A stretch of DNA of 34,067 bases from an uncultured Lentisphaeria bacterium (GTDB lineage: Bacteria > Verrucomicrobiota > Lentisphaeria > Oligosphaerales > Oligosphaeraceae), in the NCBI GenBank assembly GCA_945827525.1, contig CALZPA010000010.1, positions 1-34,067 on the forward strand, given 5' to 3'. The notes below the pieces were generated by a model. The model searched no databases. It was not told the origin of the DNA and was given only the letters and a program-made list of their open reading frames with translations. Below are positions 1,001 to 10,874 of the stretch, piece by piece. Made by a program: the position numbers and the translations under genes. Every line of letters begins with the position of its first letter. The stretch's first letter is position 1.

Positions 1001-4000
1001 CTACTTCTTGAGGAGGAAGGTTCTGGAGTCGTTTCGGGTGAGGGTGTCGGCGAGCAGTCTGTACTTGTCGAGGTGTCCGGGGAAGGCGACGTCGGGTGCC
1101 TGGCTGGCGGTCATGGTGCAGACGAGGGTGTCAGGGGAGGGCTGAGTGGTGCGGATGGCGTAGCGAGACTTGCCGTCGGGGGAGAGCCAGTTCCAGTTTT
1201 GGGGGGCCATGGTGACGGTGCGCCGTGAGGGTGGGAGGGTGATGGTGAAGGTTGAGGTGAGTTCGGTGTGACGGGTGTGGGCGATGGGTGTGGAGCGCTG
1301 GTGGTCGAAGCGGAGCGGGAGTGAGCGGAAGGCGGCGTTGGGGATGGTGAAGTAGCAGAAGGGGCCGTCGATGACGGCGAATTTGGGGATGCGGCAGGAG
1401 AAGGAGAGTCTGGCGGGGTAGGAGGAGAAGTCGGTGACGAGTTCGGAGGAGGGGACGGCGCGTTTGGAGAACTGGCTGACGAGGGCGAGGAAGTGGCGTC
1501 GGCGGTATTCGGGGGTGAGTTCGGCGAAGCGTCGGTTTTCGGCGGCGAAGCGTGGGCCGTGGATGGTGTCGGTGAAGGTGAGGGTGGCGTCGCCGTGGTC
1601 GTCGATGGCGATGCTGAAGGTGGTGGAGCTCTGTTCGCGGAAGGGTGAGGGGGTGTCGATGGTGAAGAGTCTGGCGTCGGCGGTCATGGCGGGGCAGCGG
1701 TCACGGGAGCAGGTCTGGAGATTGGCGTACTGGCTCTGGTCGTTGAGCCAGTGGGTCTTGCTGTCGTGGACGACGCGGACGAGGAGCTTGGCGAAGAGAT
1801 AGGGTGAGGGGCAGGCGAGCTGCTGCTGGAGGAGGTCATGCTGGAGTGGGGCGTTGGCGGCGAAGACGAATTCGGGGTTGAAGTCGAGTTCGCGGAGGAG
1901 CGTGAAGGCGGCGATGGCCTGGTCGGCGTCGTGTCCGTAGCCGTCGGCGAGGGTGGTTTCGGGTTCGGAGAGTCTGTCGAGAGGGAGTTCGAGGAAGGAG
2001 GGGCCGGCGTTGGCGATGGCCTTGTCGAGGAAGGTGTTGACGGCGGCGAGTCGCTGGTTGAGTGGGAGTTTGCGGATGGCGGTGGCAGCTTCCCGGATGC
2101 GCGGTCCGGCGACGCAGCGCTGGGCGATGGCCTGAGAGAGTCGTGCGAGGTGCTGTTGCCAGGAGGTTGCGGAGATGAGGATGGCGGGTGCGAAGGCGAT
2201 GGTTGGGGGCTGATAGGGTTCGTCGGGGATGGCGGGCTGGCTGTCGGCGGTCCAGGTCCAGATGGTGCGTCCGTTTTCGGAGGCGAAGGTTTCGGCGATG
2301 TTGCTCTGGTGTGCGCCGGCGCTGCTGGCGAAGATGCCGTTCTGGTGTACGGCGGTGCTGAGCTTGAGCTGGGTTGGGGTGTTGACGGAGACGGCCATGT
2401 GGCGGACCGGTGCGCTGTGTCTGCGGAAGGCGTGCTGGAGGCTGAAGGCGGGGCCGTTCTTGCAGGTGGAGGTGACCTTCAGTTCGATGACGGAGCCGAT
2501 TTCGACGCCTGGGAGTGAGACGACGAGGCGTCTGGAGGCGGGGTAGCGTGGTGCTGCGGCGACCCATTCGGCGTCCATGAGGTTGATTTCCTGCGGGCTG
2601 ACGGTCTGGGTTCGTGTTCCGCCCTTGCCGTCGGGTGTGGAGACCTTGGCGAGGTCGACGTGGACGGTCTCCCAGGCGGGGTTGAAGTCGATGGAGACCT
2701 CGGCGTTCTCCTTTTTGCCCTTGTAGGTGAGGATGCGTGTTTTGGAGTAGTCGGTCTGGGTCCAGGAGTAGGCGTCCTGGAGATTGAAGGCGATGGTGTG
2801 CTCGAGTATTTCGGCGTCGGCGCCGGCGGTGGCGTCGGTGGTGGGCTGTGGGGTGTTGGCTCGGTCGAGGATGACCCTTTTTCTGGCGTTGTCCTCGAGC
2901 TGCCGGAGCTGTTCCTTGAGGGTGAGGTACTGCTGGGGTGAGAATTCGATGGCGTTGAGGTCGAAGCGTGTCAGGAAGTCGAGCGTCTGTCCGTCGGCCT
3001 TTGCGGTGCGCGACCAGTCGAGTCGTTCGTCGTGGACGGTCTGGTAGTCGGGGAGGGTGGCGGGCGTCTTCCAGGTGGGATGGAGGGTGAGTTTGAGTGC
3101 CTCTCGGATGGCGCAGGCGTACTTGCTGAGGAAGGGGTATTTGCGCTGGTCGAGCTGGGTGGAGCCGAGGATGAAGTTGTTCATGCCGAAGGTGCTGGAG
3201 AGGAAGGGAGGCGCGAGGAGGGCGTTGGTGGAGTTCTGGGTGAGGATGGCCTCGGCGGTGAAGGCGACGTCGAGTCGGAGCGGGGTGGCGGTGTCGAGGA
3301 GATTGGCGGGTGTGATGTCGAGTCGGGAGAGGACGGCGCCTGGGGCGACGTTGCGGATGACTCGCTCGACGAAGCTGCGGCGGTCCTCGGGGGCGGCGTT
3401 GGCGAAGAAGCCTCGGTAGGCGTTGTCATGGATGCCTGCGAAGGCGAGGGTGGCCTTGGCGTCGAGGTTTCCGCGTTCGTCGATGGTTGCGGTGGTGGTG
3501 ATGTCGAGGAGGTTGTCGCTGGCGGGGGAGAAGGGGGTGGTGCGGAGGGTGTCGCCCTGTTCGCGGGCGACGAGGAAGGACTTGTCGGCGAGGTAGGAGG
3601 GCAGGAGGTCTCGTGTGTTCTCGTCGGTGGGGTCCATGAGGATGTAGGAGCCGTCGGGTGCGAGTGCGGCGGTGATGGCGTGGTTGAAGTAGGGCTGGAT
3701 GACCTCCTGGTCCATCTTGTTGCCGGCGTGGATGAGGACAGGGAAGGCCTGCTGTCCGGCGAGGTTGAGCATGGCGACGAGGAGCGCGGCCTTGTCGCGG
3801 CAGACGCCGTGGCGCTTGGCGAAGGTGAGTGCGACGTCGTGTGGCTCGTAGCCGGGCGCGTCGTCCTCGATGGTGATGCCCATGTAGCGGATTTCCTGGG
3901 AGACGAAGGTGAAGATGGCGCGGATGATGTCGTGCTGGTCGGTGAGTCCGCGGGTGAGCTCGGCGACCTTGGCCTTCATTTCGGGCGAGGGCTTGAGGTG

Positions 4001-6668: not shown

Positions 6669-6696
6669 AATGTAAGCGGGAAACGGGTGGTGTCAA
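6669..6696 (-). promoter_or_regulatory. Putative sigma70-type promoter for the flotillin-like gene
   Basis: Reading the minus strand, TTGACA (6696-6691) is followed by a 16-nt spacer and TACATT (6674-6669). The -35 box is a perfect consensus match. The element overlaps the last codons of the upstream ATPase gene and would give a leader of about 70 nt before the flotillin start, so flotillin can be expressed independently of the riboswitch-controlled operon. Confidence 0.6.
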
Positions 6697-7544
6697 CAGG
6701 TGGTGCCGCGGTTTTTCGGGTGGGGTGCGCGGGGGAGGGCCATGGGCTGTCCGGCGACGGGGTGGGGAGCGTAGTCGAAGGGGGTGCGGAAGAGGTCGTC
6801 GAGGAGTCCGTGGGGGCGGATGTCGCGGGGAGGGGCGACGAAGGCGAGGTGTCCGTCCTGGAGTGCGGCGAGGCGGTCGGCGTGGAGGAGTGCGGCGTTG
6901 AGGTCGTGGGAGACGCAGAGGATGGTGTGGGCGTCGTCCTGGTGGAGGTCGTCGAGGAGCGCGTGGATGTCCTCCTGTGCGCTGGGGTCGAGGAAGGCCT
7001 CGGGTTCGTCGAGGAGGAGGAGATGGGTTTCCTGGACGAGTCCGGCGGCGATGAAGGCGCGTCGGCACTCGCCGCCGCTGAGGGTTCGGAGGCTTCGGTG
7101 GGCGAGGGCGCTGGGGAGCCGGACCTGGGCGAGGGCGTCCCGGACGGCGCGGCTGGCCTGCGGGGAGCGGATGTCGCCGTGGGCGTAGCGGCTGAGGCGG
7201 AGGAATTCGTCGACGGAGTAGTCGGGGAGGTTTCCGTGGAGCTGCGGGACATAGGCGACGAGTCTGGCGAGGTCCCGTTGGCTGAGGGAGCGGATGTCGC
7301 GTCCGTGGATGGCGATGTGGCCGGTCCAGCTGTCGTCGAGGAGCCGTGCGAGGCAGCGGAGGAGGGTGGACTTGCCGGAGCCGTTGGGGCCGATGAGGCA
7401 GCAGAGCTCGCCGCGCCGGAGCGTGAGGGAGACGTCCTGGAGGATGGTGTGGCCGCCGATGGCGCAGGAGAGTCCGCCGATGGCGAGGGCGTCGCCGTTT
7501 CCGTTTCCGTTTCCGTTCTCTATTCCGCTGGTGTTCGCGTTCAT
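6693..7544 (-). CDS. btuD: ABC transporter ATP-binding protein, BtuD-like
   Basis: This 283-residue ATPase belongs to the FecE/BtuD family and would power cobalamin uptake through an inner-membrane permease. Visible motifs are Walker A GPNGSGKST (residues 52-60), Q-loop Gln101, signature LSGGE (155-159), Walker B LLLLDEPE (175-182) and the switch His in CVSHDLN. The frame extends much further upstream. The ATG at 7544 is chosen because it overlaps the stop of the binding-protein gene as ATGA (7541-7544), indicating translational coupling, and because the ABC domain begins soon after. The N-terminus carries an unusual (Asn-Gly) run encoded by a hexanucleotide repeat. B12 specificity is inferred from the cobalamin riboswitch heading the operon, since the ATPase sequence alone would also fit siderophore or heme transport. 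No permease gene lies nearby. Confidence 0.88.
   Translation of the reverse strand: MNANTSGIENGNGNGNGDALAIGGLSCAIGGHTILQDVSLTLRRGELCCLIGPNGSGKSTLLRCLARLLDDSWTGHIAIHGRDIRSLSQRDLARLVAYVPQLHGNLPDYSVDEFLRLSRYAHGDIRSPQASRAVRDALAQVRLPSALAHRSLRTLSGGECRRAFIAAGLVQETHLLLLDEPEAFLDPSAQEDIHALLDDLHQDDAHTILCVSHDLNAALLHADRLAALQDGHLAFVAPPRDIRPHGLLDDLFRTPFDYAPHPVAGQPMALPRAPHPKNRGTTC
7495..7518 (-). repeat. Hexanucleotide tandem repeat near the btuD start
   Basis: On the plus strand CCGTTT occurs three times in a row, followed by a fourth unit CCGTTC. On the coding strand this gives alternating Asn and Gly codons (residues about 10-17). The unit is six bases, so copy-number change would keep frame and only alter linker length. 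Confidence 0.85.
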
Positions 7545-8458
7545 GGCGCGGGAGTTCGGAGTGGCCGCAGTTGTTCGGCGAGTCGTTTGGCGAAGGCGAT
7601 GGTTCGCAGTCCGGGGACGGTGGCGTCGTTTTCGGTGAGGACGAGGAGCCGTCCTGGCTGTGTGGCCTTGAGGGTTGGGAGGGCCTGGCGCCATTCCTGG
7701 GCGAGCTGTTCGCGTCCTGGTTCGCCCTTGGGCTCCCATTCGGGTGCGATTTCGACGATGGCGTCGGGGGCGAGGGCGAGGATGCCCTCGGCGCTGACGG
7801 CGGGGTAGGCGGCTCCGGTGCCGGCGGGCACGAGGTCGCAGTGGAGGAGTTCGGCGAGTTCGCGGAAGTAGCCGTCGTCGCCGGCGACGATGAGGTCGCG
7901 GAGTCGTCCCTCGCCCCGGGTGCGCGAGATGACGACGAGGAGTCGGAGGCGTGGGAGTCCGTCCTGGCTCTGTCGGAGGGCCTGCTGGCTGGCGAGGAGG
8001 CTGGCGTGGAGGCGCTCGGCGTCGGCCTGCCGTCCGAAGGCCTGTCCGAGGGTGAGGACGGCGGCGAGCGCGTCGGAGAGAGTCTGGCCGCGGACGGGGA
8101 CGAGGGGGAGTCCGGCGGCGGCGAGGCGGTCGCGCTGTGGGTGGGTGTCGGCGAGGCAGACGGCGGTGGGTCTGAGGGCGAGGAGCTGTTCGGCGCTGAC
8201 GTCGTTCCAGGCTCCGACCTTGGGGAGGGCCTTGGCGGCCTCGGGGGTGACGCAGTACTGGGTGTCGGCGACGAGGTGGTCGCCGAGTCCGAGGGCGAAG
8301 AGGGTTTCGGTGAGGGAGGGCGCGAGGGAGATGATGCGCTCGGCTGTGGGCTGGGGGGGCTGCGCATGGGGTGCGCAGCCCCCGATGAGCGTGGCGGCCA
8401 GCAGGAGCAGCAGCCTGGCTGCCGTTGCCGGGGAGGGGTGGAGTCGGGTGCTGTTCAT
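7541..8458 (-). CDS. btuF: Periplasmic cobalamin-binding lipoprotein, BtuF-like
   Basis: This 305-residue protein is a class III periplasmic binding protein of the BtuF/FhuD/FepB type. Residues 11-28 form a lipoprotein signal with lipobox LIGGC, so Cys28 would be lipidated and the protein tethered to a membrane. The mature part opens with ERIISLAPSLTETLFALG, which is typical of BtuF-like proteins (PF01497), and later shows the family's two-lobe pattern with DAIVEIAPEWEPKG. It would take cobalamin from the BtuB-like receptor and hand it to an ABC permease. The gene lies 45 nt after btuB and overlaps btuD by four bases. The ligand is inferred from the riboswitch and the operon. Confidence 0.88.
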   Translation of the reverse strand: MNSTRLHPSPATAARLLLLLAATLIGGCAPHAQPPQPTAERIISLAPSLTETLFALGLGDHLVADTQYCVTPEAAKALPKVGAWNDVSAEQLLALRPTAVCLADTHPQRDRLAAAGLPLVPVRGQTLSDALAAVLTLGQAFGRQADAERLHASLLASQQALRQSQDGLPRLRLLVVISRTRGEGRLRDLIVAGDDGYFRELAELLHCDLVPAGTGAAYPAVSAEGILALAPDAIVEIAPEWEPKGEPGREQLAQEWRQALPTLKATQPGRLLVLTENDATVPGLRTIAFAKRLAEQLRPLRTPAP

Positions 8459-8503
8459 GCTGGCCGGTCGAGGGAGGGTGAGGGCGTCGTCCGTGTGTGA
8501 GGC

Positions 8504-10498
8504 TCAGAAGGAGTAGGCGATGCCGGCGTAGTAGGTGCGGCCGTAGGTGCCGTAGGTGGTTCCCCAGTTGCTCATGTCGGCGTAGCGGGTGTTGAGGAGG
8601 TTGTCGATGCGGAGGGTGAGCTCCAGCTGTTTGGTGAGCTTGTAGGCGGCAGCGGCGTGGAGGAGGATGTAGTCGTCGAGCTTCTCGCGGTCGGCCTTGC
8701 TGTCGGTGGTCCAGCGGGAGCCGACGAAGACGCCGCCGAGGTTGAGGGAGAGTGCGTTGTCGGCGAGGCAGCGGAAGGTGACGTCGGCGCCGAGCTTCTG
8801 CCTGGGGATGTAGGCGAGGAAGCGGTTGCCGTTCTCCTCGTTGCGAGTGCGCTGGTAGGTGTGGGTGAGGCGGACGGTGAGCTGGTCGCGGATGGGCTCC
8901 CAGGCGATGAAGCTCTCGAGGCCGCGGATGGTGACGCCGTTGATCTGCTCGTAGGTGGCGACGGTGGTCCAGGTGTCCGGGTCGTAGGAGGAGACGGAGG
9001 AGATGTAGTCGTCGATGCGGTTCTCGAAGTAGGCGATGCCTGCGCGGAGGGTCTTGCCGATGATGTCCTGCTCGATGCCGGCCTCCCAGGAGATGCTGGT
9101 TTCGGGGTCGAGGTCGGGGTTTCCTCGGACGAGGTATCCCATGGTGGTGTAGTTGTTGTAGAGCTCGTCGAGTGAGGGTGTGCGGTAGCCGCGTCCGGCG
9201 CTGGCGCGGAGGGTGGTGCCGGTCTTGGCGACGAGGTAGCGGACAGAGGCGTCGCCGACGAGTTCGGCGCCGAATTCGGAGTGGTCGACGAGTCGTCCGT
9301 TGAGGTTGAGGACGAGGTTCTCGACGGGTTCGGCCTGGAGTCCGAGGTAGTAGGAGGCGGTGCGGTGGGTTCGGTTCATGTCGCGGTGCTTGCCGGTGGC
9401 GCAGCGTCGCATCTGGTCTTCCTCGAACTGGGTACCGAGGGTGAGGTCGAGCCATTCGGTGAGGTGGAGGGTGCCCTTGAGCTCGGCCTCGCGGTGGTCG
9501 CCGGTGTAGCGCGAGGCCTGCCGTCCGGCGAGGGTGTGGTAGATGCGGTCGGCGCGGGTGGCGGCCGCCTGGAGGGAGAGGTCGAGGAGTCCGTCGAGGA
9601 GTCCGTCGCCCTTGAGGAGGGCGCCGCCCAAGGCGCGGCGGACGAGGACATCGTCCGTGTCGGGCGAGACGAAGTCGCCGTAGGCGTAGCCGTCGTCGTA
9701 TTCCTCGTCGATGTTCTGGAAGCGTCCGAAGAGTTCGGCGCGCCAGTGGTCGTCGAGCTGGAGTCCGATGCGTCCGTCGTAGACCATGGCTCGGTAGTGG
9801 TCGTCGTCGAGGTTGACTTTGCCGTAGGCGTCGCGGTAGATGGCGGAGATGCCGCGTTCGCGGGTTCTGCCGATGTCGAGTCGGTAGTCGACGGGGCCGT
9901 GCTTTCCGAGGAGCTGGAGTCCGGTGGTTGAGCGGCCGTGGCTGCCGAGTTCCTGTCGGACGGTGCCGTGGAGTCCGTCCTCGGTGGGGCGGCGGGTGAC
10001 GATGTTGATGACGCCGCCCATGGCGCTGGAGCCCTGGAGGCTGGAGGGACCCTTGACGACCTCGATGCGGTCGATGCCGTTGAGCGGGAGTCCTCCGAGG
10101 ACGGGGCCCATCTGGGTTGAGGACTGGTCATGGATGGGGACGCCGTCGATGAGGACTCGTGTGTGGTAGGGTCTCATGCCACGGATGCTGATGGCGGCGC
10201 TGCCGGTGTCTTTGGGGCCGTAGGAGCGGAAGTCGACGCCGGCGACGTCGCGGAGCGCGTCGGTGACGGTCTGGTACCCGGCGGCGTCGAGCTGCTCTCG
10301 GGTGACGATGTCGATGGTCTGTCCGAGGGAGGTCTGGAGTGCGCCGGTCTTGGCGGCGAGGACGACGATGGGCTGGAGTTCGGCGGTCTGTTCGTCGGAG
10401 TTGCTCTGAGGCGTCTGTGGAGGCTGGCTCTGTGCCCAGGCGAGGTGTGAGGCGAGAGCCGCGAGCCCGAGGGCCCGCAGGGTGTGCTGTCTGCTCAT
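8504..10498 (-). CDS. btuB: TonB-dependent outer-membrane receptor, BtuB-like
   Basis: This 664-residue protein is a 22-stranded-barrel receptor that imports a ligand across the outer membrane using TonB energy. The start at 10498 gives a signal peptide (MSRQHTLRALGLAALASHLAWA) and has AAGGA about 9 nt upstream; earlier in-frame starts lie inside the riboswitch leader. After the signal comes a TonB-box-like QPIVVLA, then the plug domain with DALRDVAGVDF, ISIRGMRPYHTRVLIDGVP, IEVVKGPSS and GGVINIVTR. The barrel ends in the aromatic YYAGIAYSF, as expected for BAM-inserted proteins. The cobalamin riboswitch directly upstream and the BtuF- and BtuD-like genes downstream make cobalamin the likely ligand. 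The length is close to that of known BtuB proteins. Confidence 0.93.
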   Translation of the reverse strand: MSRQHTLRALGLAALASHLAWAQSQPPQTPQSNSDEQTAELQPIVVLAAKTGALQTSLGQTIDIVTREQLDAAGYQTVTDALRDVAGVDFRSYGPKDTGSAAISIRGMRPYHTRVLIDGVPIHDQSSTQMGPVLGGLPLNGIDRIEVVKGPSSLQGSSAMGGVINIVTRRPTEDGLHGTVRQELGSHGRSTTGLQLLGKHGPVDYRLDIGRTRERGISAIYRDAYGKVNLDDDHYRAMVYDGRIGLQLDDHWRAELFGRFQNIDEEYDDGYAYGDFVSPDTDDVLVRRALGGALLKGDGLLDGLLDLSLQAAATRADRIYHTLAGRQASRYTGDHREAELKGTLHLTEWLDLTLGTQFEEDQMRRCATGKHRDMNRTHRTASYYLGLQAEPVENLVLNLNGRLVDHSEFGAELVGDASVRYLVAKTGTTLRASAGRGYRTPSLDELYNNYTTMGYLVRGNPDLDPETSISWEAGIEQDIIGKTLRAGIAYFENRIDDYISSVSSYDPDTWTTVATYEQINGVTIRGLESFIAWEPIRDQLTVRLTHTYQRTRNEENGNRFLAYIPRQKLGADVTFRCLADNALSLNLGGVFVGSRWTTDSKADREKLDDYILLHAAAAYKLTKQLELTLRIDNLLNTRYADMSNWGTTYGTYGRTYYAGIAYSF

Positions 10499-10544
10499 CT
10501 GCGTTGTTCCTTTTCTTTTGGGGTTTGGATTAGGCATCTGAGCC

Positions 10545-10564
10545 GCCGGCGCGTGGGCGCCGGC
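10545..10564 (-). promoter_or_regulatory. Hairpin in the riboswitch expression platform
   Basis: GCCGGCGC and GCGCCGGC form a perfect 8-bp stem with a 4-nt loop, about 46 nt before the btuB start and about 50 nt after the conserved B12 box. There is no T run behind it, so it is not an obvious intrinsic terminator. It may be one state of the riboswitch expression platform, or a fixed spacer hairpin between aptamer and ribosome binding site. Confidence 0.4.
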
Positions 10565-10599
10565 ATGGGGACAGTGCTGCCGTGTCCCTGACGCGGGGA

Positions 10600-10838
10600 G
10601 CGGCAACTCAGTACAAGATATCCTGACTACACGGGTTCAAGCCCGGAGCGCAGAGCCTTCCCGGAGCGGTCTGGGCGCGGCTGACGCTGCGTCCGGACGG
10701 CTCCAGTGACCCCTGTCGCCCCCTTTTGGGTGGCTAGCGTTCCAGTACCCGCTCACAGTAGCGCGACTGTTCCAGATTCTCACTGGATTCCCTTGTGCTT
10801 CACACAGGCGAAGCTCAGATAGGTCAATGTCCGTTGGC
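10600..10838 (-). ncRNA. Cobalamin (B12) riboswitch
   Basis: The minus strand carries the conserved cobalamin-aptamer landmarks in the right order: GGGAAT (10792-10787), CCAGTGAGAATCTGG (10786-10772), GCGCTACTGT (10764-10755) and, after a variable region, the B12-box-like AGTCAGGATATCTTG (10628-10614). In known cobalamin riboswitches, adenosylcobalamin or a related cobamide binds here and lowers expression of uptake genes. The RNA lies directly upstream of a TonB receptor gene, the classical btuB arrangement. Its 5' end is placed from the promoter and its 3' end is approximate. The region between the ACTGT element and the B12 box is long and GC-rich, with several possible stems. Confidence 0.93.
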
Positions 10839-10845
10839 GATAATA

Positions 10846-10874
10846 AATATAACACGGGGCTAGCTGAGTTGCAA
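10846..10874 (-). promoter_or_regulatory. Putative promoter for the riboswitch-btuB operon
   Basis: On the minus strand, TTGCAA (10874-10869) and TATATT (10851-10846) are separated by 17 nt. Transcription would begin near 10838, immediately before the cobalamin aptamer. The element lies back to back with the alkaline phosphatase promoter, leaving 21 bp between the two -35 boxes, so a regulator bound there could affect both. Confidence 0.65.

Follow-up and report, generated by a model that had tools for sequence, protein, structure and literature searches.

The riboswitch-headed btuB-btuF-btuD operon described here is very probably part of a normal BtuBFCD importer of vitamin B12, with the permease gene relocated to another contig of the same genome; complex formation and transport are predicted from the genes. 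The arrangement is dispersed yet ordinary, only mildly unusual and common to relatives of the host. In such an importer BtuB would bring B12 across the outer membrane and BtuF would hand it to an inner-membrane BtuC dimer powered by two BtuD ATPases. BtuB, BtuF and BtuD would be expressed from the one operon, and BtuC would be supplied by the separate gene on contig C314.

The btu operon and the distant permease gene

The window, i.e. the whole stretch of DNA that was analysed (34,067 nucleotides), is one complete contig (C10) of a 3.70-Mb draft genome in 355 contigs (G000). On its minus strand a promoter-like site is followed by a cobalamin riboswitch, btuB, btuF and btuD:

10846..10874, minus strand: promoter-like site TTGCAA-17-TATATT with a TG before the second hexamer (consensus scan), just upstream of the riboswitch
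10598..10828, minus strand: cobalamin riboswitch aptamer (RF00174, model positions 1-189 of 189)
8504..10498, minus strand: btuB, TonB-dependent outer-membrane receptor, 664 aa (PF07715 plug and PF00593 barrel)
7541..8458, minus strand: btuF, periplasmic B12-binding protein, 305 aa, lipoprotein-like N-terminus (PF01497, E 1e-19)
6693..7544, minus strand: btuD, ABC ATPase, 283 aa (PF00005, ABC_tran, E 9.8e-29)
6669..6696, minus strand: promoter-like site TTGACA-16-TACATT ahead of the flotillin-like gene (consensus scan)
6591-5068, minus strand: flotillin-like gene, the next gene after btuD

These profile matches bear out the sequence-only reading, which had placed a cobalamin riboswitch ahead of btuB, btuF and btuD-like genes. 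The riboswitch scores 47.8 bits over the full model (gathering score 31.5, E 3.9e-9), and the consensus scan found three promoter-like sites in the region where 0.1 would be expected. All genes in the window have open reading frames. The start of btuB is the ATG at 10498, which is preceded by an AAAGGAA ribosome site; the TTG at 10606 given in the ORF list falls within the riboswitch. About 100 bases lie between the btuD stop (6693) and the ATG (6591) of the following gene, presumably a flotillin-like one, and the promoter-like site in front of this gene suggests btuD as the last gene of the btu operon.

The local absence of btuC, also claimed before, could be confirmed: a PF01032 profile search of the whole genome finds no FecCD permease gene on the 34,067-nt contig and exactly one in the genome, at positions 863-1855 of C314 (E 8.6e-82). 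Whole-genome searches likewise give exactly one PF01497 gene, the btuF of the operon, and exactly one RF00174 match, the riboswitch at 10828-10598. Therefore the permease and the binding protein have only each other, although a second permease may sit in the missing 5% of the draft (95% complete, 2.9% contaminated, metagenome-like). Of the two explanations offered by the earlier reading, a permease encoded elsewhere is supported by this one FecCD gene, which groups with the BtuCs of the host family, and a shared or unusual permease finds no support in a genome with one gene of each kind.

C314 is a contig of 3.2 kb. It carries a short-chain dehydrogenase gene (138-857), btuC only 5 bases later, and an opposing gene (1873-3009) without a Pfam match. 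The contig opens (L001 1-52) with a short tandem repeat of CTATAAGAC units, which probably explains the assembly break there; this repeat is not present on C10, and no shared join between the two contigs was found. A riboswitch of its own, as had been expected for an isolated btuC, was found neither on C314, where no more than 137 bases precede the gene upstream of btuC, nor beside the lone btuC genes of relatives, and the lone btuD genes of relatives likewise have none beside them. B12 therefore probably represses the receptor, the binding protein and the ATPase and not the permease, so that only the riboswitch-headed operon appears to be B12-controlled.

The BtuC of C314 is 47-54% identical to the BtuCs of the host family and order and 38% identical to E. 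coli BtuC. In alignments R56, R59 and R295 of E. coli BtuC are conserved as R53, R56 and R300, and E90 and E224 of the host BtuF align with E72 and E202 of E. coli BtuF; we take these E. coli residues to be the ones docking the two proteins. The features of a BtuBFCD importer found in this genome are thus a TonB-dependent receptor under a cobalamin riboswitch, a PF01497 protein with both docking glutamates and a FecCD permease with the docking arginines. Linkage of the permease and ATPase genes, which is typical of such importers and not required for function, was not found.

The names given by NCBIfam point in the same direction for three of the proteins. The top model is TIGR01779 TonB-B12 for BtuB (205 bits), BtuF for the binding protein and BtuC for the C314 permease, each under its cut-off. 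For BtuD the model ranks behind heme and iron ATPases, and none of the four proteins reaches the respective NCBIfam cut-off; curated cut-offs as high as these may miss remote members. This BtuD is 47-48% identical to the BtuDs adjoining btuF in three relatives (G006, G016, G023). According to one study, BtuFCD are hard to distinguish from iron and heme systems, and about 10% of the B12-importing organisms are without BtuFCD homologues (PMC2667541).

It could be argued that the C314 permease serves mainly another substrate, such as iron, heme or a corrinoid precursor, and is shared with BtuF and BtuD, since among solved structures FhuB and HmuU outscore BtuC, while BtuF itself matches a hemin-binding protein best. 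We consider this very unlikely, because the genome is without a second PF01497 binding protein, the top NCBIfam name of the permease is BtuC, and its homologues are found in riboswitch-headed operons.

A demand for B12 is indicated by the one B12-binding protein of the genome, a MetH-like methionine synthase. As a search of the draft genome also found no CobS, the host most likely needs B12, does not make it and depends on import.

Separation of btuC in the host family and order

To follow the two proteins, 29 genomes of the host's family (its own included) were surveyed by profile searches. The scores show clear gaps: nine genomes reach at least 436 bits for BtuC, the next 247, and nine reach at least 348 bits for BtuF, the next 139. 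BtuC and BtuF of this type are thus each present in 9/29 genomes and both in eight (G000, G005, G006, G014, G015, G016, G022, G023), a co-occurrence with a Fisher p of 1.8e-5, not corrected for relatedness. G011, which is 75% complete, has BtuC without BtuF. Host-family genomes without this BtuC are also without this BtuF, with the exception of G004, which has BtuF plus a piece of BtuC where a contig ends.

A permease gene in the operon of close relatives, which according to the sequence-only reading would point to a simple local deletion, was found in none of the eight genomes carrying both genes. The separation of btuC from the btuF locus is common to at least four genera. It is most evident in G006, a single contig of 5.73 Mb, where riboswitch-btuB-btuF-btuD end at 4,080,803 and btuC starts at 4,799,591, 719 kb away; in G005 the btuF locus and btuC share a contig with about 6 kb and three opposite-strand ORFs between them. 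The same permease-free operon as in the host, with an intact btuC elsewhere, is also found in G006, G016 and G023. In two genera of relatives btuD is outside the operon as well, and in G004, G005, G014 and G022 the best btuD match is located on yet another contig. The gene upstream of btuC varies by genus, being a short-chain dehydrogenase in the host, an LD-carboxypeptidase in G006, G016 and G023, and TsaD in G022.

This distribution bears on the question whether C314 belongs to the genome at all. With a length of 3.2 kb in a draft with 2.9% contamination the contig could be misbinned; the true genome would then be without a FecCD permease, and BtuF and BtuD would use some other one. B12 entry without FecCD may indeed exist nearby, as four genomes of one genus of the host family (G009, G019, G025, G027) have cobalamin riboswitches and MetH-like proteins and no FecCD or PF01497 gene. 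However, we regard a foreign origin of C314 as very improbable. Its BtuC groups with those of the host family, both genes occur in eight genomes of the family and always apart, and genomes lacking BtuC also lack BtuF apart from the one case with a fragment. In addition, the tetranucleotide composition of C314 falls inside the range of its own genome, where 31% of 70 chunks deviate more from the mean, and is closer to this genome (0.256) than to any of the 18 relatives compared (at least 0.327).

Outside the host family the gene order btuF-btuD-btuC is kept in three genomes of the order (G045, G039, G029) and in other phyla, and homologous btuF-btuD-btuC operons with a riboswitch are present at L114, L117, L118, L119 and L120. 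Since other families of the order, like other phyla, thus have permease-linked operons, the relocation appears to be old, and the permease probably left once, in an ancestor of the host family before its genera separated, and would have been kept apart since. The order of the linked relatives also shows which joint matters. The four-base overlap of btuF and btuD noted earlier is real (ATGA, with the btuF TGA at 7541 and the btuD ATG at 7544), but the joint relevant to a lost permease gene is the one downstream of btuD. A recent local deletion of btuC, leaving either no working B12 importer or a borrowed permease, would fit the linked order in those other families and phyla, but is hardly credible given that the genes of the window are all open, that G006, G016 and G023 share the permease-free operon and keep an intact btuC, and that the separation extends over at least four genera.

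In the phylogenetic trees the BtuCs of the host family form one group (9 rows) with a moderate SH-aLRT of 88, and its BtuFs one group (9 rows) with 96. For BtuD the picture is less clear: the host protein and the other BtuDs of the family are not united in a single group, and the family's BtuDs require three changes on the tree. Linked binding-protein/permease/ATPase operons in the genera g4, g8 and g9 (G003, G007, G024 and G008 were read) were rejected as orthologues, because their permeases fall in a different FecCD clade; these operons may also encode B12 importers, and a weak riboswitch precedes the one of G008.

Within the order the btu operon has come apart at more than one joint: btuF and btuD are together and btuC apart in G034, and btuD and btuC are together and btuF apart in G044 and G037. 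Two genomes (G043, G033) were left out of the split counts because their btuD or btuC pieces end at contig edges, possibly assembly breaks, and two more (G036, G038) because their permeases fall beyond the BtuC clade or right on its border. The order of the host offers a natural series of the break-up of one ABC transporter: F-D-C, FD+C, F+DC and F+D+C. A gene gap in a B12 operon is not the same as an absent transporter, and pathway callers which require adjacent btuF, btuC and btuD would wrongly score these genera as non-importers of B12.

Comparison with known B12 transport systems

The BtuB/BtuF/BtuCD system of E. coli consists of the same four component types, and its docking residues are kept in the host proteins. 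Its genes are dispersed too (in MG1655 btuF at 177,662 and btuC-btuE-btuD at 1,792,809-1,795,152), so that the distant btuF is a precedent for dispersed btu genes. However, in E. coli the binding protein is separate and permease and ATPase are together, whereas in the host it is the permease that is separate, with receptor, binding protein and ATPase together. Riboswitch-headed btuF-btuD-btuC operons of Planctomycetes (L118, L120), Hydrogenedentota (L114) and the order relative G045 share homologous proteins and the riboswitch class with the host, but there btuC follows btuD, while in the host it is gone from the operon. Bacteroides B12 loci, as described in PMC6143338, resemble the host in riboswitch-regulated B12 transport with btuB and differ in having extra surface lipoproteins (BtuG), none of which was seen in the host operon. 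A literature search, with many journals outside its coverage, did not turn up a description of btuC split from btuFD in Lentisphaerota.

Cobalamin riboswitches and pseudopilin genes in the host family

Among 22 cobalamin riboswitches of the host family (21 from the survey of relatives and the one on C10) seven precede a pseudopilin gene, in seven genomes of four genera:

L104 1733-2656: riboswitch-pseudopilin locus
L106 1127-2188: riboswitch-pseudopilin locus
L163 3700-4677: riboswitch-pseudopilin locus
L239 186-1155: riboswitch-pseudopilin locus
L240 3004-3974: riboswitch-pseudopilin locus
L246 1-964: riboswitch-pseudopilin locus
L247 2586-2902: riboswitch-pseudopilin locus

The N-terminal motif of the pseudopilin lies 40-74 bases downstream of the riboswitch on the same strand; in 254 kb of the host's own genome there is roughly one such motif per 36 kb. 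The riboswitches of G004 (AdoCbl-II) and G009 (RF00174) reach the gathering score and the other five are below theirs; in the alignments for G004, G014, G009, G025, G011 and G010 much of the conserved core is kept. The gene after the pseudopilin gene is btuF in G004 and G014. The literature search, again with many journals outside its coverage, found no report of such a link, and this lead is more novel than the btuC split.

One could go further and describe B12 import in the host family as a set of dispersed modules with riboswitch control only on capture. The permease would have escaped B12 control, as would the ATPase in two genera, and in four sister genera the riboswitch would be placed on a pseudopilin gene (in one directly before btuF) whose product may be a surface B12-capture protein replacing or joining BtuB. 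We offer this as a speculative and rather unlikely extension.

The genus without FecCD and PF01497 genes (4/4 genomes; loci L162, L163, L239 and L240 of G027, G009, G019 and G025), in which G027 also has btuB, may be the genuine example of B12 uptake that uses no known permease. Weak cobalamin riboswitch matches are located upstream of a BtuB-like receptor at L242-L245 (G003, G007, G017, G024), followed in G003, G007 and G024 by two coiled-coil-like genes. In G013 (L164 1291-3259) a lactate-racemase-like (Lar_N) gene is found within about 0.5 kb downstream of a cobalamin riboswitch. Finally, in the contigs read (C10 and L184-L191) most minus-strand genes show a strong C excess at third codon positions, and many plus-strand genes are near zero or have more G than C there.
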